Source: an uncultured Eubacteriales bacterium (GTDB lineage: Bacteria > Bacillota > Clostridia > Christensenellales > Aristaeellaceae). From it: 64,000 nucleotides of DNA. Below are positions 20,319-35,514 of this stretch, one piece after another; position 1 is the stretch's first letter; each line of letters begins with the position of its first letter. The stretch is taken from assembly GCA_902796025.1 (NCBI GenBank), contig CADBNW010000217.1:21432-85431 (forward strand), written 5' to 3'. The notes below the pieces were generated by a model. It saw only the letters and a list, made by a program, of their open reading frames with translations. It had not been told where the DNA came from and did no database searches. The position numbers and the translations under genes are program-made.

Positions 20319-21500
20319 ATGGAGTTTAACGAGAGTTATTTTGCCAAGCATATCGCGCCCATCAGCGGCAGCGCCATCCGTGACATTTTTAAGCTGCTGG
20401 GAAAGCCCGGCATGATCTCCTTTGCGGGCGGCAACCCCTCAAACGCCGCGCTGGAGCCTCAGGTGATCGGCCCCATCGCCAAAGAGGTCATAGAAGGGAT
20501 CGGCGCACCCATCCTGCAGTACGGCGCGAGCGAAGGCTTTATCCCTTTGAAGGAAAGCGCCCACCGGTACCTGCTGGACAGCGGCGTTCCCTGCAAGGAG
20601 AGCGAGATCTTGCCCACTGAGGGCTCCACGCAGGGCATGGATCTGCTGCTAAAGGCCCTGATCGACCCCGGCGACGTGGTGCTGGTGGAGGACCCCACCT
20701 TCCTTGGCGCGCTGCAGGCGATGAAGACCTACCACGCAAAGATCGTCGCTGTAAAGAGCGACGAGAACGGCATTTTGCCGGACGAGCTTGAAAAGGCGAT
20801 GAAGGAATATCACCCGAAGCTTGCCTACATCATTCCCACGTTCCAAAACCCCACCGGCGTTACCTTGAACGCGGAGCGAAGGAGGATGATAGCCCATCTG
20901 GCGTCGAAGTACGGCGTGATCGTAGCGGAGGACGACCCGTACCACGATCTGCGCTATACCGGCGAGAATCTGCCCACGATCAAGAGCTTTGACGAGGATG
21001 GCTGGGTGGTGTACCTTGCAAGCTTTTCCAAGATCATCTCTCCCGGCATGCGCGTAGGCACGATGGTGGTATCCTTCCCGGAGCTTATGCGAAAGTGCGT
21101 CATCGGCAAACAGTCCAGCGACCTGCACTGCCCGCTGATGACCCAGGCCATCGTGGACGCGTATCTTCGAAAGGGCCTTCTGCCGGAGCATCTTACCCGC
21201 ATCCGCGCGGGCTACAAGGCGCAGCTGGACGCGATGCTGAAGGGCTTTGAGGCGTTCCCGAAGGGGACACAGCTTATCAAGCCCGAGGGAGGCCTGTTTG
21301 TCTGGGCGGCGCTGCCGGAGGGCATGAACGCGACGCAGCTGCTTTCGACCGCCGTGGAAAACAACGTGGCCTACGTGCCCGGCACGCACTTCTATCCGGA
21401 AGGCGGCCATCACAACACCCTGAGGCTCAACTTCTCCAACAGCCCCGTGGACAAGATCAACGAAGGCATGGAGAAACTTGCAAAAATATTCAATAACTGA
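20319..21500 (+). CDS. PLP-dependent class I aminotransferase (T-box controlled)
   Basis: A 393-residue fold-type I aminotransferase. It shows YGASEGFIPLKES near residue 70, the PLP-binding NPTG region in PTFQNPTGVTL, the AEDDPYHDLRY motif, and the Schiff-base lysine in ASFSKIISPGMRVG. It resembles the LysN/2-aminoadipate and aromatic/valine-pyruvate-like group, so several amino acids are possible substrates. Control by a tyrosine T-box and the shared unit with tyrS suggest a role in tyrosine or phenylalanine supply; this is inference. The start at 20319 has GGAGG seven bases upstream; the ATG at 20304 has none. Confidence 0.88.
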   Translation: MEFNESYFAKHIAPISGSAIRDIFKLLGKPGMISFAGGNPSNAALEPQVIGPIAKEVIEGIGAPILQYGASEGFIPLKESAHRYLLDSGVPCKESEILPTEGSTQGMDLLLKALIDPGDVVLVEDPTFLGALQAMKTYHAKIVAVKSDENGILPDELEKAMKEYHPKLAYIIPTFQNPTGVTLNAERRRMIAHLASKYGVIVAEDDPYHDLRYTGENLPTIKSFDEDGWVVYLASFSKIISPGMRVGTMVVSFPELMRKCVIGKQSSDLHCPLMTQAIVDAYLRKGLLPEHLTRIRAGYKAQLDAMLKGFEAFPKGTQLIKPEGGLFVWAALPEGMNATQLLSTAVENNVAYVPGTHFYPEGGHHNTLRLNFSNSPVDKINEGMEKLAKIFNN

Positions 21501-22752: not shown

Positions 22753-23387
22753 TGGAGCTGAAGCCTTATAAAACGCTGCTTGGGCGCGCGCAGGACGAGA
22801 TCGTGATCAACAAATCGCGCTTTCTGTGCTACGGCGCGCCCTGCGCGGACGAGACGGAGGCATTGGATTTTTTAAAGCAAGTGCGCGGCATCCACCCGGA
22901 TGCCACGCATCATTGCTATGCGTACGCCCTGCAGCCGAATATGGGCATCATGCGTTATAGCGACGATGGAGAGCCGGGCGGCACGGCGGGCCTTCCGATG
23001 ATGGAGGTCGTAAAGGCGAAAAACGTCACCAACTGCATCGTGGTGGTCACACGCTATTTCGGCGGTATATTGCTTGGGGCGGGCGGGCTGGTGCGCGCCT
23101 ATTCCCAGGGCGCGGCGCTGGCCATAGACGCCTGCGGGGTGGGCACGGTGTATCCCACCGCCCGCTATATGGTGGATATCGCCTACAACCTTTGGGGGCG
23201 GGCGGAGTACTTTCTTGCCTCGCAGCCCGTGGAGCTGGAGGACAAAAGCTTTACCGACAAGGTAAGCCTTACGCTCATCGTAAAAGCGCAGGACGAAGAA
23301 AAATTCATCACGGCGCTCACCAGCGCGCTTGACGGCAGGGTGGAGACGCTAAGACTGGAAGAATTGTACAAGGCATGGAAAGCATAA
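22752..23387 (+). CDS. YigZ/IMPACT family protein
   Basis: A 211-residue protein with the IMPACT N-terminal domain: GIHPDATHHCYAYAL, YSDDGEPGGTAGLPM, and VVVTRYFGGILLGAGGLVRAYSQGA. The C-terminal part is the small DUF1949-type ferredoxin-like domain. Family members bind ribosomes or translation factors in some bacteria, but the biochemical role is not settled. The ATG shares its A with the tyrS TAA (TAATG), so translation is coupled. Confidence 0.92.
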   Translation: MELKPYKTLLGRAQDEIVINKSRFLCYGAPCADETEALDFLKQVRGIHPDATHHCYAYALQPNMGIMRYSDDGEPGGTAGLPMMEVVKAKNVTNCIVVVTRYFGGILLGAGGLVRAYSQGAALAIDACGVGTVYPTARYMVDIAYNLWGRAEYFLASQPVELEDKSFTDKVSLTLIVKAQDEEKFITALTSALDGRVETLRLEELYKAWKA

Positions 23388-24559
23388 GAAAAAAAGCAGC
23401 GCGGGGAGTACTGGTCTACACCCTGTGCATTTTTATGGCGCAATGGATCCTGGCAAGCCTGCACTCCGCTGTGGGCGCGTATCAGACGGAGGTCATAAGC
23501 GCCTACGCCCTTGAGGACTCGGCTAAGGGGCTCGTGTCAAGCACGCTGAGCCTGCTTACGATCATCACCTTTGCGGCGGTTTTGCTGCTTAGCGGGCGCG
23601 TTCAAAAAAGCAGGATGCTGCTGTTTGGGCTTGCGCTTGCTGCGTGCTCGCTTTGCCTGATCGCCCTAAAGGGCGTAGAGCGCAGCTATGGACTGCTGCT
23701 TTGCCTGATCGCCTTTGCCGGGATCGGCTGTGGCTGCATCGACAGCCTTGGAAGCGCGGTGCTTAGCGAGCTCTATCCCGGAAAGGGCAGCGTGATGAGC
23801 CTGTATCACGCGACCTACGGCTGCGCGGGCCTAATGATGCCCTTTGTATTTGGGCTTTTGAGTGGCAAGGGCGTTTTTGGCGGCCTTGGCTTTCGCGGCG
23901 CTTATGCGTTTGTGGGAATGCTTGCGCTTTTGCCGCTTGCGGTGATGGCTCTTGGCGTTTTGCCGGGGTATCGAGAAGGAAGACAAGGCCCGGCCCGGCG
24001 CGTAAGCCCTGGTCTGATCGGGCAGACCCTTTCCGAAAAGCGGCTGCTGCCCGTGTTTGCAAGCGCCATCCTTGGCGGCATGTACCTAAACACCATGCTG
24101 GTATGGACGCCGCGCTTCATCGTCTATGGCCACGGGGGAGCGGAGTATGAAAAATGGGCGCTTGCCTGTGTGTATCTTGCAATCACCCTTTCGCGCCTGC
24201 TGATGTCCCTTCTAAAGCCGAATATGCGAAAAACGCTTTGGCTGCTTATGCCCGTATCCGCGCTGGGGCTGCTTGCGGCCATTTGGGTAAAGCAGCCGCT
24301 TTGGGCGCTGATATTTGTGTTTGCAAGCGTGTTTTGCTGCGCGCCGGTCATTCCCTTTCAGGTGACCATCGCAAGCGACATGCTGCCGGAGAAAAGATTT
24401 TTGATTACGCTTTTGCTGATGTTCATCATGATGCTTGGACAGACGCTGATCGCGCCCATCATCGGGGCTGCGGAAAGCGCCTGGGGCATCAATTCCGCGA
24501 TGTATCTTGCCGCAGGAGCGATGGCGCTTAGCTGGATCGCGGCGCTTAGGATAAAATGA
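23375..24559 (+). CDS. MFS transporter
   Basis: A 394-residue integral membrane protein with about 12 hydrophobic segments and a basic cytoplasmic loop near the middle (GYREGRQGPARR). The first half includes GIGCGCIDSLGSAV and YHATYGCAGLMMPF, similar to sugar/drug major facilitator proteins of the FucP/YfkF type. The substrate cannot be read from sequence. It overlaps the yigZ end by 13 bases and the next gene by an ATGA, so it belongs to the same unit. Confidence 0.85.
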   Translation: MESIRKKAARGVLVYTLCIFMAQWILASLHSAVGAYQTEVISAYALEDSAKGLVSSTLSLLTIITFAAVLLLSGRVQKSRMLLFGLALAACSLCLIALKGVERSYGLLLCLIAFAGIGCGCIDSLGSAVLSELYPGKGSVMSLYHATYGCAGLMMPFVFGLLSGKGVFGGLGFRGAYAFVGMLALLPLAVMALGVLPGYREGRQGPARRVSPGLIGQTLSEKRLLPVFASAILGGMYLNTMLVWTPRFIVYGHGGAEYEKWALACVYLAITLSRLLMSLLKPNMRKTLWLLMPVSALGLLAAIWVKQPLWALIFVFASVFCCAPVIPFQVTIASDMLPEKRFLITLLLMFIMMLGQTLIAPIIGAAESAWGINSAMYLAAGAMALSWIAALRIK

Positions 24560-26315: not shown

Positions 26316-26360
26316 TACTTTTACGCCCTTATATGCTAAACTTATGCGCATAATTATGCA
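26295..26360. promoter_or_regulatory. Pair of ArgR-type operator boxes
   Basis: CGCATAATTATGCA (26347-26360), containing the perfect palindrome GCATAATTATGC, matches the ARG-box pattern TGNATWWWWATNCA at all but one fixed position. A weaker copy, TGAATAAATATAAG (26295-26308), lies between the -35 and -10 of the promoter. Two boxes about 50 bases apart are a common arrangement for a hexameric arginine repressor. No argR gene is in the window. Confidence 0.7.
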
Positions 26361-26377
26361 TAAGGAATGGGCCGTAT

Positions 26378-27289
26378 ATGCACAAAGTATTTATTGACGG
26401 AGGCGCCGGAACCACGGGGCTTCGCCTGCGCGAGCGGCTGACGCAGCGGAAGGACATTGCGCTGATTGAGCTAAGCGATGAAATGCGAAAGGACGCAAAT
26501 GCCCGCAGGGACGCACTGAACGAGGCGGAGATCGCTTTTTTGTGCCTGCCGGATGACGCGGCCAGGGAGAGTGTTTCCCTGATCGAAAACCCGCTTGTAC
26601 GGGTGATCGACACCTCTACAGCCCACAGAGTGGCGCAAGGCTGGGCGTACGGCTTGGCGGAATTGACCGGGCAGAGGGAAAGGATCGCCTCCTCCCTTCG
26701 CGTAGCTAATCCCGGCTGCCACGCAAGTGGCTTTATCGCGCTGATCGCGCCGTTGGTGGAAGCGGGCCTCATCAAAAAGGACGAGCATCTCAGCTGCTTT
26801 TCTCTGACCGGCTATTCCGGCGGGGGCAAAAAGATGATCGCTCAGTATGAAAGCGAGAGCAGGGATCTCCTTTTGAATGCGCCCCGCCAGTACGGGCTTT
26901 CCCAAGCGCACAAGCATCTTCCGGAAATGACCTATTACAGCGGCCTTGATGCGGCACCTGCCTTCTGCCCGGTGGTCGCGCCGTTTTACAGCGGCATGGA
27001 GGTCGCAGTGCTGGTTTTTGGTGTGCAGCCTGAAAGGGCAAAAGAGGTCTACCGCCAAAAATATGCTGGCGGCCTGATACGCTTTAAAGAGGAAAGCGAC
27101 GAGCAGGGCTTTCTTTCCGCCGCGGCCTACAGCGGGAAAGACGATATGGAAATCAGCGTCCACGGAAACGACGAGCGCCTTTTGCTGGTTGCGCGCTTTG
27201 ACAACCTCGGCAAGGGCGCCTCGGGCGCAGCGATACAGAACATGAACATCATGCTGGGCTTAAACGAGTCCACCGGGCTTGCACTGTGA
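26378..27289 (+). CDS. argC: N-acetyl-gamma-glutamyl-phosphate reductase, short (type 2) form
   Basis: Reduces N-acetylglutamyl phosphate to the semialdehyde with NADPH, the third step to ornithine. The N-terminus VFIDGGAGTTGLRLRERL is a Rossmann dinucleotide-binding start. The active-site cysteine is Cys114 in NPGCHASGF, and IDTSTAHR and GYSGGGKKM are conserved. At 303 residues, and with this N-terminus, it fits the shorter argC subgroup (TIGR01851) rather than the 340-350-residue form more usual in Bacillota. AAGGA lies about ten bases before the ATG. It is first in the arg-car unit. Confidence 0.92.
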   Translation: MHKVFIDGGAGTTGLRLRERLTQRKDIALIELSDEMRKDANARRDALNEAEIAFLCLPDDAARESVSLIENPLVRVIDTSTAHRVAQGWAYGLAELTGQRERIASSLRVANPGCHASGFIALIAPLVEAGLIKKDEHLSCFSLTGYSGGGKKMIAQYESESRDLLLNAPRQYGLSQAHKHLPEMTYYSGLDAAPAFCPVVAPFYSGMEVAVLVFGVQPERAKEVYRQKYAGGLIRFKEESDEQGFLSAAAYSGKDDMEISVHGNDERLLLVARFDNLGKGASGAAIQNMNIMLGLNESTGLAL

Positions 27290-27306
27290 GCGGAAGGGAG
27301 CAAAAG

Positions 27307-28521
27307 ATGAAACAAATCGAGGGCGGCGTCTGCGCCGCAAAGGGCTTTACGGCAAACGGCATCCACTGCGGCATCCGTAAAAACCGATCCAAGCGGGATC
27401 TGGCGCTGATCTACTCCTCAACGCGGGCAGCCTGCGCGGCGGTGTACACGCAAAACCTCGTAAAGGGCGCGCCGCTCAAGCTCACAAAGGAGCATCTTTC
27501 GGACGGCTGGGCGCAGGCGATCATCTGTAACAGCGGAAACGCCAATACCTGCAACGCAAACGGGCGCGAAATCGCCGAGGGCATGAGTGAGCTTGTAAGC
27601 AAGCGCCTTGGCATAAAGGCTCAGGACGTGGTCGTGGCCTCCACGGGCGTGATCGGTCAGCCCATGAGCCTTGAGCCGATCGAAAAAGGCATCGGCGCGC
27701 TTACAGACGGGCTCAGCCGTGACGGCTGCGAAAAAGCGGCGGAGGGCATCATGACCACGGACACGGTCAAAAAGGAGATGGCCGTGGAGTTTACCCTGGG
27801 CGGCAAGACCTGCCGCATGGGCGGCATCGCCAAGGGCAGCGGCATGATCCACCCAAACATGGCGACGATGCTGGTGTTTATCACGACGGACGCTGCGATC
27901 TCGGCAGAAATGCTGCAAAAGGCGCTCTCGGGCAACGTGCAAAACACCTTCAACATGCTCTCCATCGACGGCGACACCTCTACAAACGACATGGTCGTAG
28001 TGATGGCAAACGGCCAGGCAGAAAACGAAGAAGTGAACGGCGAAGGAGAGGATTTTGATAGATTCATGCAGGCGCTGAACACCATCAACGTTGGCCTGTG
28101 CCGCATGATCGCGGGAGACGGCGAGGGAGCGACCAAGCTGCTTGAGTGCAAGGTAAGCGGCGCGTCAGACAAAAGCACTGCCCGCACGGTGGCAAAGAGC
28201 GTGATCTGCTCCTCCCTGCTAAAGGCCGCGATGTTTGGCGCGGACGCAAACTGGGGGCGCGTATTGTGCGCCATCGGCTACAGCGGAGCTCAACTGGACG
28301 TTGATAAAATAGACGTATCCTTTCAAAGCGATGCTGGCCTGATCGAGGTATGCAAAAATGGCGCGGGCGTGGACTTTGACGAGGCGCTTGCCAAAAAGAT
28401 CCTAAGTGAAAAGGAAATCGACATTCTGGTGGAGCTCAACAGCGGCGCTTTTTCCGCGGACGCCTGGGGCTGCGATCTTACCTACGATTATGTGAAGATC
28501 AACGGCGATTACCGCACCTGA
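27307..28521 (+). CDS. argJ: Glutamate N-acetyltransferase/amino-acid acetyltransferase ArgJ
   Basis: Transfers acetyl from N-acetylornithine to glutamate, recycling the acetyl group; the bifunctional form also uses acetyl-CoA. The self-cleavage site is NMATMLVF, with the nucleophile Thr187 following the cleaved Ala. TGVIGQPM and the C-terminal SGAFSADAWGCDLTYDYVKING are typical. At 404 residues it is full length. The start at 27307 has GGAAGGGAG six bases upstream; the GTG at 27286 would overlap argC. Its presence explains the lack of argE here. Confidence 0.95.
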   Translation: MKQIEGGVCAAKGFTANGIHCGIRKNRSKRDLALIYSSTRAACAAVYTQNLVKGAPLKLTKEHLSDGWAQAIICNSGNANTCNANGREIAEGMSELVSKRLGIKAQDVVVASTGVIGQPMSLEPIEKGIGALTDGLSRDGCEKAAEGIMTTDTVKKEMAVEFTLGGKTCRMGGIAKGSGMIHPNMATMLVFITTDAAISAEMLQKALSGNVQNTFNMLSIDGDTSTNDMVVVMANGQAENEEVNGEGEDFDRFMQALNTINVGLCRMIAGDGEGATKLLECKVSGASDKSTARTVAKSVICSSLLKAAMFGADANWGRVLCAIGYSGAQLDVDKIDVSFQSDAGLIEVCKNGAGVDFDEALAKKILSEKEIDILVELNSGAFSADAWGCDLTYDYVKINGDYRT

Positions 28522-28535
28522 GGAGGGCATGGTAT

Positions 28536-29417
28536 ATGGAAGGAACGCTTACCAACCACGAACGCGCAGAGGTGCTGACCCAGGCGCTGCCCTACATCCA
28601 GCGCTACACCGGCAAGACCGTCGTCATAAAGTACGGCGGAAACGCGATGGTGAACGAAAGCCTGAAGCAGCAGGTCATGGAGGATGTGGTGCTTTTGTGG
28701 CTGATCGGGGTAAAGGTCGTGCTGGTGCACGGAGGCGGGCCGGATATCAGCGAGCTTATGAAGCGGCTTGGCAAGCAGCCGCAGTTTATCGACGGCCTGC
28801 GCGTGACCGACGCGGAGACGGTGGACATCGCGCAGATGGTGCTGGCGGGGCGCATCAACAAAACGCTGGTAAATCTGCTTGAAATGAAGGGCGGCCGCGC
28901 CATCGGTCTAAGCGGTGTTGACGACCGCATGATCGAGGCGGACTTCCGAGACGAGCGGCTGGGATACGTGGGGCGCATCACAAAGATCAATATTCGGCCG
29001 GTAGTGGACATCATGGACAAGGGGTATATCCCTGTCATTTCCACTCTGGGCTGCGACGCGCGGGGCAACGTTTTCAACATCAACGGCGATACCGCCGCCG
29101 CCCGGATCGCGGGCGCGCTTGGCGCGGAGGAGCTCATCATGATGACGGATATCGCGGGCATCCAGCTGGACAAGGACGATCCCTCGACCTTGATCCCCGA
29201 AATCAATCTTGCGCGCATCGACCAGCTAAAGCGCGAGGGCGTGATCACGGGAGGAATGATCCCCAAGGTGGATTGCTGCATCACGGCGTTGGGCGAGGGC
29301 GTAAAGCAGGCAGTCATCATGGACGGGCGCGTGCCCCACTCGATCTTGATGGAGCTATTGACAGACGAGGGCGCGGGCACGCTGGTAAAGGAGGATGTGC
29401 ATGGCTATCAGTCTTAA
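28536..29417 (+). CDS. argB: Acetylglutamate kinase
   Basis: Phosphorylates N-acetylglutamate. It shows KTVVIKYGGNAM near residue 30, VHGGGPDIS, and TDIAGIQLDKDDPS and GVITGGMIPK for nucleotide and substrate binding. At 293 residues, and with an N-terminal helix (TNHERAEVLTQALPYIQRY), it has the form usually inhibited by arginine through a hexamer; that is a family expectation. GAGGAGGG lies eight bases before the ATG. It overlaps argF by 17 bases. Confidence 0.96.
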   Translation: MEGTLTNHERAEVLTQALPYIQRYTGKTVVIKYGGNAMVNESLKQQVMEDVVLLWLIGVKVVLVHGGGPDISELMKRLGKQPQFIDGLRVTDAETVDIAQMVLAGRINKTLVNLLEMKGGRAIGLSGVDDRMIEADFRDERLGYVGRITKINIRPVVDIMDKGYIPVISTLGCDARGNVFNINGDTAAARIAGALGAEELIMMTDIAGIQLDKDDPSTLIPEINLARIDQLKREGVITGGMIPKVDCCITALGEGVKQAVIMDGRVPHSILMELLTDEGAGTLVKEDVHGYQS

Positions 29418-30405
29418 GGGCAGAAGCTTTTTGACGCTGATCGATTATTCGGCGGAGGAAATAGAAGCCTTATTGTGCCTTGCGGCGCGCCTGAAGGCCG
29501 ACAAAAAGGTGGGGCGGGCGCACAGGCTGTGCGAGGGAAAAAGCGTCGCGCTGATATTCGAAAAGACCTCCACCCGCACGCGCTGCGCCTTTGAAGTTGC
29601 CGCGTTCGATCTTGGCATGCACGCGGTATATCTGGATCCCAGCGCATCCCAGATCGGCAAAAAGGAATCCATGGCCGACACTGCGCGGGTGCTGGGGCGC
29701 ATGTTTGACGGCATCGAGTACCGGGGCTACGGGCAGGAGCGCATGGAAGCGCTTGCAAAATACGCGGGCGTCCCTGTGTGGAACGGGCTGACGAACGAAT
29801 ACCATCCCACCCAGGTGCTTGCGGACATGCTGACCATACAGGAGCACTTTGGCTCGCTGAAGGGAAAAAAGCTCGTCTTTATGGGCGATGCGAGATACAA
29901 TATGGCTGCGTCCCTCATGATCGGCTGCGCAAAGCTGGGGCTTCATTTTACTGCGTGCGCGCCGAAGGAATATTTTCCGGGCGACGCGCTGGTAGAAAAA
30001 TGCAAAAGCTGGGGAAGGGACAGCAGTGCTAAAATCGAGCTCGTCACAGAACCTGAAAAAGCGGTATGCGGCGCGGATGTGATCTACACGGACGTTTGGG
30101 TCTCCATGGGCGAGGATGCGGGCGTATGGCAAAAGCGGATTGAGGATCTTACGCCTTACAGGGTGACAAGGGCGCTGATGGAAAAGGCGGGCCCTGGCTG
30201 CCGCTTTATGCACTGCCTGCCCTCCTTCCACGATCTTGGAACGCAGACGGGGCAGGAGATCTATCAGAAATATGGCATCGACTGCATGGAAGTGACGGAC
30301 GAAGTGTTCGAGGGCGCGCAGTCCATCGTATTTGACGAAGCGGAGAACCGCATGCACACCATCAAGGCGGTAATGGCGGCCACGCTTGCGGACGCGTTCA
30401 ACTAA
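29401..30405 (+). CDS. argF: Ornithine carbamoyltransferase
   Basis: Joins carbamoyl phosphate to ornithine, giving citrulline. The carbamoyl-phosphate loop is KTSTRTRCAFE, HPTQ follows in NEYHPTQVLAD, and the ornithine-binding HCLP motif is in RFMHCLPSFHD. At 334 residues it is normal. The ATG at 29401 has AAGGAGG six bases upstream, whereas the one at 29395 is directly next to it. Its carbamoyl phosphate comes from the two genes that follow. argG and argH are not in the window. Confidence 0.95.
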   Translation: MAISLKGRSFLTLIDYSAEEIEALLCLAARLKADKKVGRAHRLCEGKSVALIFEKTSTRTRCAFEVAAFDLGMHAVYLDPSASQIGKKESMADTARVLGRMFDGIEYRGYGQERMEALAKYAGVPVWNGLTNEYHPTQVLADMLTIQEHFGSLKGKKLVFMGDARYNMAASLMIGCAKLGLHFTACAPKEYFPGDALVEKCKSWGRDSSAKIELVTEPEKAVCGADVIYTDVWVSMGEDAGVWQKRIEDLTPYRVTRALMEKAGPGCRFMHCLPSFHDLGTQTGQEIYQKYGIDCMEVTDEVFEGAQSIVFDEAENRMHTIKAVMAATLADAFN

Positions 30406-30422
30406 GCAAAGGGATGATATCC

Positions 30423-31496
30423 ATGTCGAAGCGATATTTGATTTTGGCAGACGGCAGCGTTTACGAGGGCGAGGCCTTCGGCTACGAGGGCGAGGCGCTG
30501 GGCGAACTGGTGTTCAATACGGGCGTCGTGGGCTATATTGAGACGCTGACCGATCCAAGCTACTATGGGCAGATCATCATGCAGACCTTCCCGCTGATCG
30601 GCAACTACGGCATCATCGAAGAGGACTTCGAGGGCAGATGCCTTTGCAGCGGCTATGTCGTGCGCTCCTGGTGCCAGACGCCAAGCAATTTCAGAAGCGA
30701 GTACGACCTGGACGCGTTTTTGAAGCGTCACAAGGTGCCTGGCATTTGCGGGCTGGATACCCGCGCCATCACCCAGCACATAAGAGACCGGGGCGTGATG
30801 GGCGCGATGCTGTCAAATGCCCCCAAGGCGGATCTGGAGGGCCTTCGTGCCTTCAAGATCCAAAACGCCGTTTCGCACGCTGCGGCAAACGATACATTGA
30901 TCTACCCCGCGAAGGGGGAGAAGCTTTTCAGCGTGACGCTTGTGGACTACGGCACAAAAAAGGGCATCATAAGGGAATTGAATCAAAGGGGCTGCGAGGT
31001 CACGGTAGTTCCGCCCTCCATGACGGCAGATGAGATTCTTTCCATGAAGCCGGACGGCGTGATGCTTTCAAACGGCCCGGGCGATCCGGCGGAGAACGAG
31101 GAATGCATCGCCCAGATCGCCCGTTTACTTGGAAAGCTGCCGATGTTTGGCCTGTGCCTTGGCCATCAGATGATGGCGATCGCAGCGGGCGGCAAAACCA
31201 TCAAGCTCAAATACGGCCACCGGGGCGGCAATCAGCCAGTCACCGACGTAAAGACCGGGCACACCTACATTACCAGCCAAAACCATGGATACGCGGTGGA
31301 CGCAGACAGCCTGAAAACGGGTGTGGTACGCTTTGTAAACGCAAATGACCTGACCTGCGAGGGCGTGGATTATCCGGAGCAATGCGCCTTCGGGGTGCAG
31401 TTTCATCCCGAGGCCTGCGCGGGGCCTCGTGATACTGCCAAACTCTTTGACCGCTTTACGCGCATGATGGGAGGGAAGAGCTTTGCCGCTGAATAA
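30423..31496 (+). CDS. carA: Carbamoyl phosphate synthase small subunit
   Basis: The glutamine amidotransferase subunit that feeds ammonia to CarB. The N-terminal CPSase domain has LADGSVYEGEAFG and GYIETLTDPSYYGQI. The class I glutaminase has its nucleophile Cys245 in FGLCLGHQMM and the His/Glu pair in VQFHPEACAG. The length is 357 residues. I start it at 30423, with AAAGGG about ten bases upstream, rather than at the ATG at 30414. The end overlaps carB by 14 bases. Confidence 0.96.
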   Translation: MSKRYLILADGSVYEGEAFGYEGEALGELVFNTGVVGYIETLTDPSYYGQIIMQTFPLIGNYGIIEEDFEGRCLCSGYVVRSWCQTPSNFRSEYDLDAFLKRHKVPGICGLDTRAITQHIRDRGVMGAMLSNAPKADLEGLRAFKIQNAVSHAAANDTLIYPAKGEKLFSVTLVDYGTKKGIIRELNQRGCEVTVVPPSMTADEILSMKPDGVMLSNGPGDPAENEECIAQIARLLGKLPMFGLCLGHQMMAIAAGGKTIKLKYGHRGGNQPVTDVKTGHTYITSQNHGYAVDADSLKTGVVRFVNANDLTCEGVDYPEQCAFGVQFHPEACAGPRDTAKLFDRFTRMMGGKSFAAE

Positions 31497-34400
31497 AGAC
31501 ATCAAAAAGGTGCTGATGATCGGCTCTGGGCCCATCGTGATCGGACAGGCGGCGGAATTCGACTACGCGGGAGCGCAGGCCTGCCGTGTGCTGAAGGCAG
31601 CCGGGGTCAACGTGGTGCTGGTAAACTCCAACCCCGCGACTATCATGACGGATAAGGCGCTGGCGGACGAAATCTATCTGGAGCCCCTGACCGCCGAAAC
31701 GGTAAAGCGCATCATCCTTAAGGAACAGCCGGACAGCATGCTGGCGGGCCTTGGCGGACAGACTGGCCTTACCCTTGCGATGCAGCTGAGCCGCGAGGGC
31801 TTTTTGGACGCGCACGGCGTAAAGCTGATCGGCACGAACGCCGAGGCCATCGAAAAGGCGGAGGACAGGCAGGCTTTCAAGGACACCATGCTGGAAATCG
31901 GCGAGCCAGTCATTCCCTCGGACATTGCAAACGACGCAGGCACCGCGCTTGCCATCGCGCATGAGATCGGCTATCCTGTGATCATTCGCCCCGCCTTTAC
32001 CCTGGGCGGCACCGGCGGAGGCGTAGCGTACAACGACGAGGAAATGCGCACCGTGGCGCAGGCGGGACTGGACGCCTCCCCGATCACGCAGATTTTGGTG
32101 GAAAAGTACATCGCCGGCTGGAAGGAGATCGAATTTGAGGTCATGCGGGATGCCATCGGCAACGTGATCGCCATCTGCAGCATGGAAAATGTGGATCCGG
32201 TGGGCGTGCACACCGGCGACAGCATCGTGGTGGCCCCGGCGCTTACCCTGAGCAACAGGGAGTACCAGATGCTGCGCTCCGCGGCGCTAAACATCATAAA
32301 TGCCCTTGGCATCATGGGCGGCTGCAACTGCCAGTTTGCGCTGGATCCAAACAGCATGGACTACGCGGTGATCGAGGTAAACCCAAGGGTCAGCCGCTCT
32401 TCCGCCCTGGCCAGCAAGGCAACCGGCTATCCCATTGCGAAGGTGACGACGCAAATCGCCCTGGGCTACAATCTGGACGAGATCAAAAACGAGATCACCG
32501 GCAAAACCTGCGCCTGCTTTGAGCCCACGGTGGATTACGTGGTGGTCAAGTTCCCCAAATGGCCCTTTGACAAGTTCAACACCGCGCGCCGCCGCCTGGG
32601 CACGCAGATGAAGGCAACGGGCGAGGTGATGGCGATCGCAACCTGCTTTGAGATGGCGCTTATGAAGGTGGTGCGGGGCGCGGAGATCGGCCTGGACACG
32701 CTGAACAAGGCTCCCCTCGATCAAAGAGATGTGCGTAAGCGCCTGAGCGACATGGACGACAACCGCATCTTTACCTGCTTTGAGGCCATCAAGGCGGGCG
32801 TGAGCGTCGATGAGATCTTTGAAATCACCCGCATAGACCGCTGGTTTTTGAACCGGCTAAAGCATCTTGCTGAGTATGAAGAAAGCATAAAGCAGGGCTT
32901 GAGCGATGAAGCGTATTTAGAGGGCAAAAGGCTTGGCTATACGGACAAGGCCCTTACTTGCCTGTCCGGCAGAAAGGAGCTGCCGGGCAGATCTGCCGTT
33001 TACAAAATGGTGGATACCTGCGCTGCAGAATTTGACGCCGAAACACCGTACTTTTATTCTGCCTACGACACGGTCTGCGATTCCAGAAGCTTTAAGCGCT
33101 CCGGCCGCCCTTGCGTGATGGTGCTGGGCTCTGGACCGATCCGCATCGGGCAGGGCATCGAATTTGACTATTCCTCCGTGCACTGCGTGTGGACGCTGCG
33201 GGATATGGGCTATGACGTGGTGATCGTAAACAACAACCCGGAGACCGTCTCCACCGATTACGACACCGCGGACAGGCTGTACTTTGAACCCCTGACGCCC
33301 GAGGACGTAATGAACATCATCCGGGTGGAAAAGCCTGTTGGCGTCGTGGTGGCCTTTGGCGGACAGACCGCGATCAAGCTGACAAAGTTTCTGGACGAGC
33401 AGCACATACCGATCCTTGGCACCTCCGCCGACGGCATCGACCTTGCGGAGGACCGGGCGCGCTTTGACGCGCTGCTTGAGAGCTTTGGCATACGCCGTCC
33501 AAGCGGTATGGGCGTGCGCACGATGGAGGAGGCGCTGGACGCCGCAAGGAAGCTTGGGTATCCTGTGCTTTTGCGCCCGTCCTACGTAATCGGCGGCCAG
33601 AACATGACCATCAGCCGCAGCGACCATCAGACACAGGATTACATGCAGCGCATCCTGGCAGGCGGCATCGATAACCCCGTGCTGGTGGATAAGTACATGC
33701 CCGGCATCGAACTGGAGGTGGACGTGATCTCAGACGGCCAGGACGTGCTGATCCCCGGCATCATGGAGCACATCGAGCGCGCGGGCGTGCATAGCGGCGA
33801 CTCCATCGCCGTGTATCCGCCCTACAATCTGGACGACCGCTACATACAAAAGATCTGCGACAGCTCCAAAAAGCTCGCGCTCGCGCTTGGCACGAAGGGC
33901 CTTGTAAACATCCAGTATCTGATCTACGAGGATGAACTGTATGTGATCGAGGTAAACCCAAGGGCCTCCAGAACCGTGCCCTACATCAGCAAGGTGACGA
34001 ATGTGCCCATGGTGCAGCTGGCGGCGCAGGTGATGCTGGGCGCGAAATTGGAGGAGCTTGGCTGCGGAACGGGACTAAACCGCACGCCGCCGTATTACGC
34101 TGTGAAGGTGCCGGTCTTCTCCTTTGAAAAGCTAAGCGACGCAAACTCCATTCTGGGGCCGGAAATGAAATCCACGGGCGAGGTGCTGGGCATTGGCAAA
34201 ACGATGCCGGAGGCGCTGTTCAAGGGCCTTACCGCGGCGGGCTTCAAGGTGCCGTCGCCGGAAAAGGCCAGCAGCACGGGCGTGCTTTTGAGCGTGGAGG
34301 AGACCGACTATCAGGAGATCATCCAGCTTGCCAAGCGCTTTTACGATCTGGGCATGGGACTGTACGCCACCACAGGCACGGCGGGCGCGATCGCAAGCCT

Positions 34401-35514
34401 CGGCATCCCCGTACAGGCAGTAAAAAACGCAAGCGAGAGCGACGACATAACCCGCCTGATGGCGTCTGGGAGCCTGAGCTACATCGTATATACCGGCGCG
34501 GTAAAGGACGCGACCATTGGCGATTACACGGTATTGCACCGCAAGGCGATGCTGCTTGGCATCCCGTGCCTTACGTCCCTGGACACGGCAAACGCCCTTG
34601 CGGACATCATCGAAAGCCGCTTTACGGCCTACAGCGTGGAGCTTGTGGACATCAACAATATGCGCGCCTGGCGGCAGAAGATCCACTTTGCAAAGCTTCA
34701 GTCCTGCGGCAACGACTGCATCTATATCGAAAACTTTGACGGCAGCATCACCTGCCCGGAGTCGCTGTGCGTGGAGCTGTGCAGGCAGCATTACGGCATC
34801 GGCGGCGACGGCATCGTGCTGATCGAAAAATCAAAGCTCGCGGACGTCAAAATGCGCGCCTTCAACCGCGACGGCAGCGAAGGCCTGATGGCTGGAAACA
34901 GCCTTCGCTGTGTGGCCAAGTACGTATACGACAAAGGCTATGTGCGCTCTCAGGTGATGAGCATCGAAACGGCAACGGGCGTTACGCACCTAAAGCTGTA
35001 TTTAAAGGATGGCAAGGTGAGCACCGTTTCGGCCAAGGTCGCCAATGTGTGCTTTGACGCGCGCAAGATCCCCGTGCGCACGGAGAAATCCTGCTTGGTC
35101 GACGAAGAGCTGATGCTTGGGGGCGAAAAGCTGCGCGTCACCTGCGTAAACGTTGGAAATCCCCATGCGGTCATCTTTACAGACCAGCTGGACGCCGTGA
35201 ACGTAAAGGAAAAGGGCACGCGGATCGAATACGCGGACATCTTCCCGGAGCGCGTGAACGTGGAGTGGGTAAGGGTCATAAACCGCACCACGCTGCGCGT
35301 TCGCGTATGGGAGCGGGGAAGCGGCGAGACCTTGGCCTGCGGGACCGGCGCATGCGCGGCAGCTGTGGCCGCGGTGCGCCTGGGACTATGCGACAGGGGG
35401 CGCGACATCACCGTAAAGCTTCCCGGCGGAGATCTTACTGTGAACACCGATGGCAGCGCCATCACGCTTACGGGCAGCGCCGTAATGGTGTTTGAGGGAG
35501 ACTTCGAGTACTAA
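31483..35514 (+). CDS. carB: CarB-DapF fusion: carbamoyl phosphate synthase large subunit + diaminopimelate epimerase-like domain
   Basis: A 1343-residue fusion read from a TTG start with GGAGGG seven bases upstream. Residues 1 to about 1059 are a complete CarB: two ATP-grasp halves (GSGPIVIGQAAEFDYAG and GSGPIRIGQGIEFDYSS open them) and an MGS allosteric domain (LYATTGTAGAI). The frame continues without a stop into a full-length DapF-like domain (about 1060-1343) with SCGNDCIYI, GIGGDGIVLIE, NVGNPHAVIF and ERGSGETLACGTGACAA. The second catalytic cysteine is Cys1286. The first catalytic position, normally MCGNG, reads MAGNS here: Ala1137 replaces the Cys. Either epimerase activity is lost or chemistry is changed. 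It closes the arg-car unit. Confidence 0.93.
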   Translation: MPLNKDIKKVLMIGSGPIVIGQAAEFDYAGAQACRVLKAAGVNVVLVNSNPATIMTDKALADEIYLEPLTAETVKRIILKEQPDSMLAGLGGQTGLTLAMQLSREGFLDAHGVKLIGTNAEAIEKAEDRQAFKDTMLEIGEPVIPSDIANDAGTALAIAHEIGYPVIIRPAFTLGGTGGGVAYNDEEMRTVAQAGLDASPITQILVEKYIAGWKEIEFEVMRDAIGNVIAICSMENVDPVGVHTGDSIVVAPALTLSNREYQMLRSAALNIINALGIMGGCNCQFALDPNSMDYAVIEVNPRVSRSSALASKATGYPIAKVTTQIALGYNLDEIKNEITGKTCACFEPTVDYVVVKFPKWPFDKFNTARRRLGTQMKATGEVMAIATCFEMALMKVVRGAEIGLDTLNKAPLDQRDVRKRLSDMDDNRIFTCFEAIKAGVSVDEIFEITRIDRWFLNRLKHLAEYEESIKQGLSDEAYLEGKRLGYTDKALTCLSGRKELPGRSAVYKMVDTCAAEFDAETPYFYSAYDTVCDSRSFKRSGRPCVMVLGSGPIRIGQGIEFDYSSVHCVWTLRDMGYDVVIVNNNPETVSTDYDTADRLYFEPLTPEDVMNIIRVEKPVGVVVAFGGQTAIKLTKFLDEQHIPILGTSADGIDLAEDRARFDALLESFGIRRPSGMGVRTMEEALDAARKLGYPVLLRPSYVIGGQNMTISRSDHQTQDYMQRILAGGIDNPVLVDKYMPGIELEVDVISDGQDVLIPGIMEHIERAGVHSGDSIAVYPPYNLDDRYIQKICDSSKKLALALGTKGLVNIQYLIYEDELYVIEVNPRASRTVPYISKVTNVPMVQLAAQVMLGAKLEELGCGTGLNRTPPYYAVKVPVFSFEKLSDANSILGPEMKSTGEVLGIGKTMPEALFKGLTAAGFKVPSPEKASSTGVLLSVEETDYQEIIQLAKRFYDLGMGLYATTGTAGAIASLGIPVQAVKNASESDDITRLMASGSLSYIVYTGAVKDATIGDYTVLHRKAMLLGIPCLTSLDTANALADIIESRFTAYSVELVDINNMRAWRQKIHFAKLQSCGNDCIYIENFDGSITCPESLCVELCRQHYGIGGDGIVLIEKSKLADVKMRAFNRDGSEGLMAGNSLRCVAKYVYDKGYVRSQVMSIETATGVTHLKLYLKDGKVSTVSAKVANVCFDARKIPVRTEKSCLVDEELMLGGEKLRVTCVNVGNPHAVIFTDQLDAVNVKEKGTRIEYADIFPERVNVEWVRVINRTTLRVRVWERGSGETLACGTGACAAAVAAVRLGLCDRGRDITVKLPGGDLTVNTDGSAITLTGSAVMVFEGDFEY

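Follow-up and report, generated by a model that had tools for sequence, protein, structure and literature searches.

What does a diaminopimelate epimerase domain do at the end of a carbamoyl phosphate synthase (CPSase) when only one of its two catalytic cysteines is left? The question is raised by a gene in a 64,000-nt stretch of DNA (the window; positions 21,432 to 85,431 of contig CADBNW010000217.1, assembly GCA_902796025.1) from an uncultured Eubacteriales bacterium, in which the large CPSase subunit, CarB, is joined in frame to a DapF-like domain. The answer favored here, with about an even chance of being right, is that the domain is a natural pseudo-epimerase, which would bind diaminopimelate (DAP), or a ligand resembling it, but not invert it, and would act as a clamshell regulator of the arginine-operon CPSase. 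A binding or allosteric domain had been among the possibilities raised in the preliminary description of this locus, and it is the one preferred.

The fused gene, carB::dapF, occupies 31483–35514 on the forward strand and is one open frame of 1343 codons (1343 aa). Its TTG start overlaps the 3′ end of carA and lies 7 nt after a putative ribosome binding sequence, GGAGGG (31470–31475, forward strand), read from the sequence. Pfam matches along the protein are CPSase_L_D1, D2 and D3, MGS, and then DAP_epimerase in two stretches. Both families exceed their NCBIfam cut-offs: TIGR01369 (CPSaseII_lrg) scores 1386.1 bits (cut-off 1027) over residues 4–1041, and TIGR00652 (DapF) scores 254 bits (cut-off 114.65) for residues 1055–1343 alone, covering both lobes. 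The in-frame fusion of a complete CarB and a complete DapF first proposed for this locus thus stands, with its internal limits slightly moved. The CarB part (31483–34656, forward) ends at a DIN motif, residues 1056–1058, near the ancestral CarB C-terminus; in the domain alignment of fusions the D and I of this motif (D2 and I3) are nearly invariant and a short linker follows. From the profile boundaries and a comparison with the CarB end of an unfused relative, the linker was placed at residues 1059–1066 (34657–34680, forward) and the DapF domain at residues 1067–1343 (34681–35511, forward), so that CarB proper seems to end near residue 1058 and DapF to begin near 1067 rather than at 1060. At the position of Cys73 of Haemophilus influenzae DapF, the first catalytic cysteine, the window domain has Ala1137 (codon GCT, 34891–34893, forward), in the context MAGNS where DapF has MCGNG. 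The second, Cys217, is kept as Cys1286 (TGC, 35338–35340, forward). Both codons are as originally read. DapF is recognized by two catalytic cysteines, and with Ala1137 the window domain is therefore not filed as a DAP epimerase.

The fusion is widespread, also in a two-cysteine form that often lies beside dapL. After two partial rows were dropped, 143 distinct fused CarB-DapF domains were extracted (the domain of genome G178 is identical to another and was merged with it in subsequent counts). The first-cysteine site holds Cys in 34 of them and is changed in 109 (Ala in 79, Gly in 18, Ser in 10, Phe and Pro in one each), a comparison among relatives that the preliminary description had called for; these will be called two-cysteine and lost domains. 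The second cysteine is present in 141 of the 143, and both are present in all 51 stand-alone DapFs of the set. Extracted fusions occur in at least 72 of 150 genomes with the same family code, the window's own included, with three contig-edge fragments (G094, G118, G121) left out of this count. A class-level sample of 291 genomes yielded at least 39 with a fusion besides the window's own, in 20 family codes. Ten genomes outside the class, in a phylum-level sample of 249, have frames of 1314–1363 aa (E up to 1e-78) that were called fusions by frame length alone. Named GTDB genomes were also scanned; of the 80 loci obtained, 35 have a fusion, and 33 of these are distinct and sufficiently complete, 16 of them with two cysteines. 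The records are of Clostridia, Oscillospiraceae and Ruminococcus, and nearly all are metagenome bins, the sole isolate being Ruminococcus sp. FC2018 (L140). Automatic annotation of such fusions may already exist in protein databases. The gene joins two known families; no description of the fusion was found in the titles and opening abstract lines of open-licence papers, or in passages of a paper that reconstructs gut-bacterial amino-acid pathways (PMC9026213). Two bins labelled Treponema (L141 and L169) also carry fusions without the first cysteine, by either gene transfer or wrong binning, and in genome G276 (L268, 7146–11176) the fused carB is in two frames of 736 and 580 aa, as a natural split or a sequencing error.

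The 109 lost domains differ from the two-cysteine ones with full separation at position 1137 only; the next best site shows a difference of 0.71. His1228 and Glu1277, the equivalents of His159 and Glu208, are invariant in all 109; for 1BWZ these two and the pair of cysteines make up the catalytic residues named in PMC3581254 (in part). Residues of DapF that contact DAP have been named in PMC8225329 and PMC12039745 (both in part). Asn11, Asn64, Asn157, Asn190, Glu208 and Arg209 are present in the window domain as N1077, N1128, N1226, N1259, E1277 and R1278, and across the lost domains the equivalents of Asn64, Asn157, Asn190, Arg209, Gly218 and Thr219 fall in the most conserved 7–14% of positions, with Asn11 (28%) and Asn75 (18%) less conserved. 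In PddB and the diaminobutyrate (Dab) racemases, which have another substrate, a model shows different residues at N64, N157, N190 and R209, the distal-carboxylate sites (PMC8225329, in part). Because the DAP contacts are kept in the lost domains, whereas PddB with its other substrate differs there, the pattern argues for continued binding, by these domains, of a DAP-like ligand that has an L-amino-acid end.

The lost domains are under purifying selection. In 11 close pairs the ratio of nonsynonymous to synonymous substitution rates (dN/dS) is 0.02–0.20, and 0.004–0.27 for their CarB part; five two-cysteine pairs give 0.02–0.06. In several pairs dS exceeds 1, where the ratios are rough. Together with the residue conservation, this bears out the earlier suggestion that the other DapF motifs are kept and the domain selected. 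The predicted DapF fold is likewise intact. A structure model of the MGS and DapF parts (residues 943–1343, from 34 sequences) has a mean predicted local distance difference test score (pLDDT) of 90.2 and a predicted template modeling score (pTM) of 0.79, and DapFs head its Foldseek matches in the PDB (2otn_A, E 8.1e-33). The model fits most closely to the inhibitor-bound structures 9mro_A (target template modeling score, TM, 0.91; 2.1 Å) and 3ejx_A (0.88; 2.5 Å) and less well to 1bwz and 4ijz (0.81–0.82; 3.5–3.8 Å), which suggests a closed-like shape; this stops short of proof, the more distant, DAP-bound 5m47 giving 0.79. The window domain thus resembles DapF (TIGR00652, PF01678; 2otn, 9mro, 1bwz) in its full two-lobed fold, second cysteine, His, Glu and DAP contacts, and differs in having Ala for the first cysteine, a fused CarB, and a complete stand-alone DapF elsewhere in the genome. 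Also among the Foldseek matches is the C73S mutant of H. influenzae DapF (2q9h), which similarly lacks the first cysteine and has an intact fold; that mutant was made in the laboratory, while the window domain and 108 relatives are natural. Both cysteines are required for inversion, and Cys-to-Ser at either one nearly abolishes the activity of the DapF homolog PddB, leaving less than 0.1% (PMC8225329, in part). We infer strongly that epimerase activity has been lost in the window domain, which combines the three marks of a pseudoenzyme: a kept enzyme fold, a lost catalytic residue, and selection. Annotation of the fusion as “diaminopimelate epimerase” will thus assign to such bacteria a step of lysine synthesis of which the domain is probably incapable, although some other genomes seem to have no DapF except the fused one.

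A tree of 194 DapF domains places every fused row in a single group, which has 148 members and includes five stand-alone rows (Shimodaira–Hasegawa-like approximate likelihood ratio, SH-aLRT, 95). The cysteine state changes at least nine times among the fused rows, and the starred branches alone force just three changes for the lost label; by this comparison of sequences the first cysteine was lost more than once. The two-cysteine and lost forms are a natural series of an enzyme domain changing role, in which several losses can be compared. The fused CarBs form one clade in a FastTree CarB tree (106 of 106 full-length sequences, local support 99), and next to it (support 100) is the unfused CarB of locus L320, where carA, carB, dapF and dapL are separate genes and DapF has both cysteines. 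This CarB ends in VDINTL and a stop, with the probable DapF start codon about 50 bases downstream. Because the sister CarB has separate genes and DIN is retained in the fusions, the fusion probably arose through loss of the stop codon between carB and dapF in a carA-carB-dapF-dapL operon. Five loci have these four genes separately, of which only L320 adjoins the fused clade; the CarBs of the other four (L196, L259, L322, L323) are placed elsewhere and their DapFs among the stand-alone ones, so the gene order occurs more widely. Another DAP-carAB neighborhood is that of Escherichia coli, with dapB upstream of carAB. At L261, L262 and L156, the gene next to carA encodes a two-cysteine DapF that belongs to the fused group, with no carB in between; there the carB part seems to have been deleted and DapF retained.

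Gene neighbors differ with cysteine state. The dapL gene was sought with one plant-type sequence at 250 bits, a search that other DapL types would escape, and lies within 400 bp downstream of 11 of 30 two-cysteine fusions versus none of 94 lost ones (counting those with at least 1.3 kb downstream); one of them, in G276, scores 548.2 bits with TIGR03542. Another DapF was found in 77 of 92 genomes with a lost fusion, versus three of 18 with a two-cysteine fusion, the fusion being the only DapF match in the other 15. With dapL adjoining in 11 of 30 cases and the fusion the only DapF in 15 of 18 genomes, the two-cysteine fusions are probably active as epimerases. Meso-DAP dehydrogenase (Ddh) by-passes DapF. 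Four of the 15 two-cysteine genomes without another DapF also lack Ddh above cut-off (G276, G153, G326 and G182; 97, 94, 93 and 76% complete), and in three of these dapL adjoins the fusion; here the fused domain is presumably the only meso-DAP route, and hence active. Seven of the 15 lost genomes without another DapF have Ddh. Genes of arginine synthesis lie upstream of 49 of 73 lost fusions versus none of 14 two-cysteine ones (counted where at least 3 kb of sequence precedes carB). A general tie between loss of the first cysteine and the arg operon was considered and rejected; it holds in the main group only, with six lineages elsewhere lacking arg genes.

CPSase is a classic example of an allosteric enzyme, and its known effectors in bacteria work through the MGS domain. 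The catalytic-site residues R129, H243, E299, E841 and R848 of CarB (E. coli numbering) are present in all CarBs compared: 79 of 79 lost, 27 of 27 two-cysteine and 45 of 45 unfused. The MGS nucleotide effector site (K954, T974, T977, K993, N1015 and T1017) is a regulatory feature of CarB and not a defining catalytic one. In the window it keeps T974 and T977 and has Y at 954, a non-basic residue at 993, Y at 1015 and G at 1017. Residues 954 and 993 are both basic in 37 of 45 unfused and 27 of 27 two-cysteine CarBs, and in 19 of 79 lost ones. The window CarB is thus like that of E. coli (TIGR01369; 1bxr) in its four Pfam parts and five catalytic-site residues, and differs from it at 954, 993, 1015 and 1017 and in the added C-terminal DapF.

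A history consistent with these patterns would begin with a single fusion, by stop loss in a carA-carB-dapF-dapL operon, giving at first a bifunctional enzyme with presumed epimerase activity. Where another route to meso-DAP was present (a separate DapF or Ddh), the first cysteine would have become dispensable and been lost repeatedly, and without it the two-cysteine proton relay should stop. Closure of the two-lobed domain around a ligand that has an L-amino-acid end would remain possible; LL- or meso-DAP is the simplest candidate and is placed before arginine or ornithine. Closure would be passed to the adjoining MGS regulatory domain and would set CPSase activity, ligand control replacing the nucleotide control whose site is eroded in the window's clade. 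The proposal draws on the residue pattern, on the need for both cysteines, on the closing of DapF around its substrate (PMC12039745, in part), and on a known regulatory precedent: E. coli DapF binds and stimulates RppH (PMC4227774, in part), and an inactive DapF variant still does so (PMC7144940, in part). There too DapF regulates another enzyme without its own catalysis, although the partner is a separate protein, an RNA pyrophosphohydrolase, whereas here the two are fused and regulation is proposed. If the proposal is true, CPSase would be controlled in a new way, through a second, amino-acid-binding clamshell on its own chain, and in this basic metabolic enzyme of some gut bacteria a pseudo-epimerase would serve as a sensor controlling arginine synthesis.

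Several observations weigh against this reading. The fusion, the residue pattern, selection, the gene contexts and the predicted fold are what the sequences show; the ligand, the control of CPSase and its sign are inferred, and folding needs rather than a ligand could lie behind the conservation of the pocket. In the DapF tree the L320 DapF has no firm position next to the fused ones, which leaves the CarB half as the basis for a single origin. Eight genomes with lost fusions show neither another DapF nor Ddh (bins 65–92% complete), and 11 of the 15 two-cysteine genomes without another DapF have Ddh yet retain both cysteines; a backup route therefore does not force the loss. The association of cysteine state with a second DapF is also confounded by kinship: the Fisher value of 6.6e-8 counts relatives as independent and is not a test, and the starred branches hold two independent pairs, without significance. 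No arg gene is upstream at 24 of the 73 lost loci. Some lost lineages branch at the base of the main group or outside it; the six of these in which 3 kb or more precedes the gene have carA and no arg gene, and the seven with a full-length CarB retain Lys993. Erosion of the nucleotide site is thus a feature of the main group, and it did not come about in a single event together with cysteine loss and the arg-operon setting.

The chief rival is that the DapF domain is a structural passenger, needed by CPSase for folding or oligomer contacts, whose redundant catalysis was lost and for which no ligand matters. This is possible, if on the unlikely side; it accounts both for purifying selection and for repeated loss where another meso-DAP route exists. 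A passenger should, however, also lose His159, Glu208, Cys217 and the contact Asn and Arg residues, which are almost fully kept in the 109 domains while position 1137 varied. In addition, the fused group contains three unfused DapFs (L111, L114, L156), each encoded by its own gene after carA, so that the domain folds there without CarB; since these have both cysteines, the objection is a limited one.

A changed enzyme is less credible, and we consider it improbable. One-thiol members of the proline-racemase/DapF fold run one-base reactions, and a one-cysteine elimination, dehydration or partial exchange might be imagined here, given that the second cysteine, His and Glu are retained and that the fold includes hydroxyproline dehydratases, which are among the Foldseek matches. 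Many lost members have, moreover, gained a C-x4-C-x3-C-x2-H motif, in the window Cys1091, Cys1096, Cys1100 and His1103 (34753–34791, forward), which was found only among the lost fusions. All three of its cysteines are present in 49 of 109 lost domains (47 also with His1103) and in none of the 34 two-cysteine fusions or 51 stand-alone DapFs, and not one of the three occurs in any two-cysteine domain; the motif looks like a metal or redox site. No identified neighboring gene points to a new substrate, however; the DAP contacts are unchanged; and the residue at the lost site varies (A, G, S, F, P), as would not be expected had a new catalytic residue taken its place. Cys1075, beside Asn11, was considered as a moved catalytic thiol and rejected as no clear replacement, being also present in 17 of 34 two-cysteine fusions and 20 of 51 stand-alone DapFs. 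The changed racemase or epimerase suggested earlier thus gained no positive evidence, with catalytic and DAP-contact residues kept and only position 1137 separating the two states. A broader version of the sensor proposal, in which cysteine loss repeatedly made the fusion allosteric, the domain senses DAP and couples arginine synthesis to it, and the Cys3-His site gained in one large group binds metal or senses redox, is put forward tentatively and is rather doubtful as a whole.

A scaffold or channel joining arginine and lysine/peptidoglycan metabolism, for example by recruiting a separate DapF through the dimer face, had also been raised in the preliminary description and is harder still to credit. 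DapF does dimerize (PMC7144940, in part) and bind RppH (PMC4227774, in part), and two-cysteine fusions often adjoin dapL; against this, dapL is downstream of none of the 94 lost fusions, and the separate DapF of the window genome is very divergent (end branch 1.02). We know of no intermediate shared by the CPSase and DapF reactions. Nothing beyond the draft state of the genome and its 5.66% contamination speaks for an assembly or sequencing artefact, and a missed stop, frameshift or base error near the join is refuted by 143 distinct sequences that share the join and come from many genera and family codes, 109 of them without the first cysteine, and by fusions in the single-contig genome G342 and, by frame length, in G616 and G640.

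In the window, carB::dapF closes an arginine operon on the forward strand: argC (N-acetyl-gamma-glutamyl-phosphate reductase, 26378–27289, TIGR01851 336.7 bits), argJ (27286–28521, TIGR00120 469.6 bits), argB (acetylglutamate kinase, 28536–29417, TIGR00761 258.6 bits), argF (ornithine carbamoyltransferase, 29395–30405, TIGR00658 403.5 bits), carA (30414–31496, TIGR01368 419.4 bits) and the fusion. The preliminary description had placed the unit under an ArgR-type promoter. The operon setting agrees with this; the operator is less convincing. A palindrome before argC (26345–26362, no strand assigned) is a weak candidate, with three mismatches to an E. coli-type ARG-box consensus; at that threshold three matches were found in the window versus 2.79 expected by chance, and the ArgR homolog of the genome scores 129.1 bits, just below the cut-off of 130.45. 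Nor does DAP-related chemistry under arginine control, as had been suggested, follow, since epimerization is presumably lost here and a separate DapF can supply it.

The genome is a 2.93-Mb draft, 94.23% complete. The second, complete dapF that had been proposed as a check is present on contig C223 (L276, 4353–5222) and encodes 290 aa with both cysteines, the very divergent sequence noted above. The genome also has dapB; a plant-type DapL had no match above cut-off in it, and Ddh had no match. A second, unfused CarB is encoded in its pyr operon (pyrC-carB-pyrK-pyrD-pyrF-pyrE-pyrB), and the fusion is therefore the arginine-operon CPSase and not the pyrimidine-operon one. The pyr operon (L258, G000 contig C236) has carB without carA, and carA of the arg operon is the sole TIGR01368 match above cut-off in the draft, two others being below; with two CarBs versus one CarA, a single small subunit may serve both large ones, or a gene may be missing from the draft. 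Elsewhere in the window, a 394-aa ORF at 23375–24559 has no NCBIfam match; its neighbors are a gene of the YigZ family and one for an RluA-type pseudouridine synthase.

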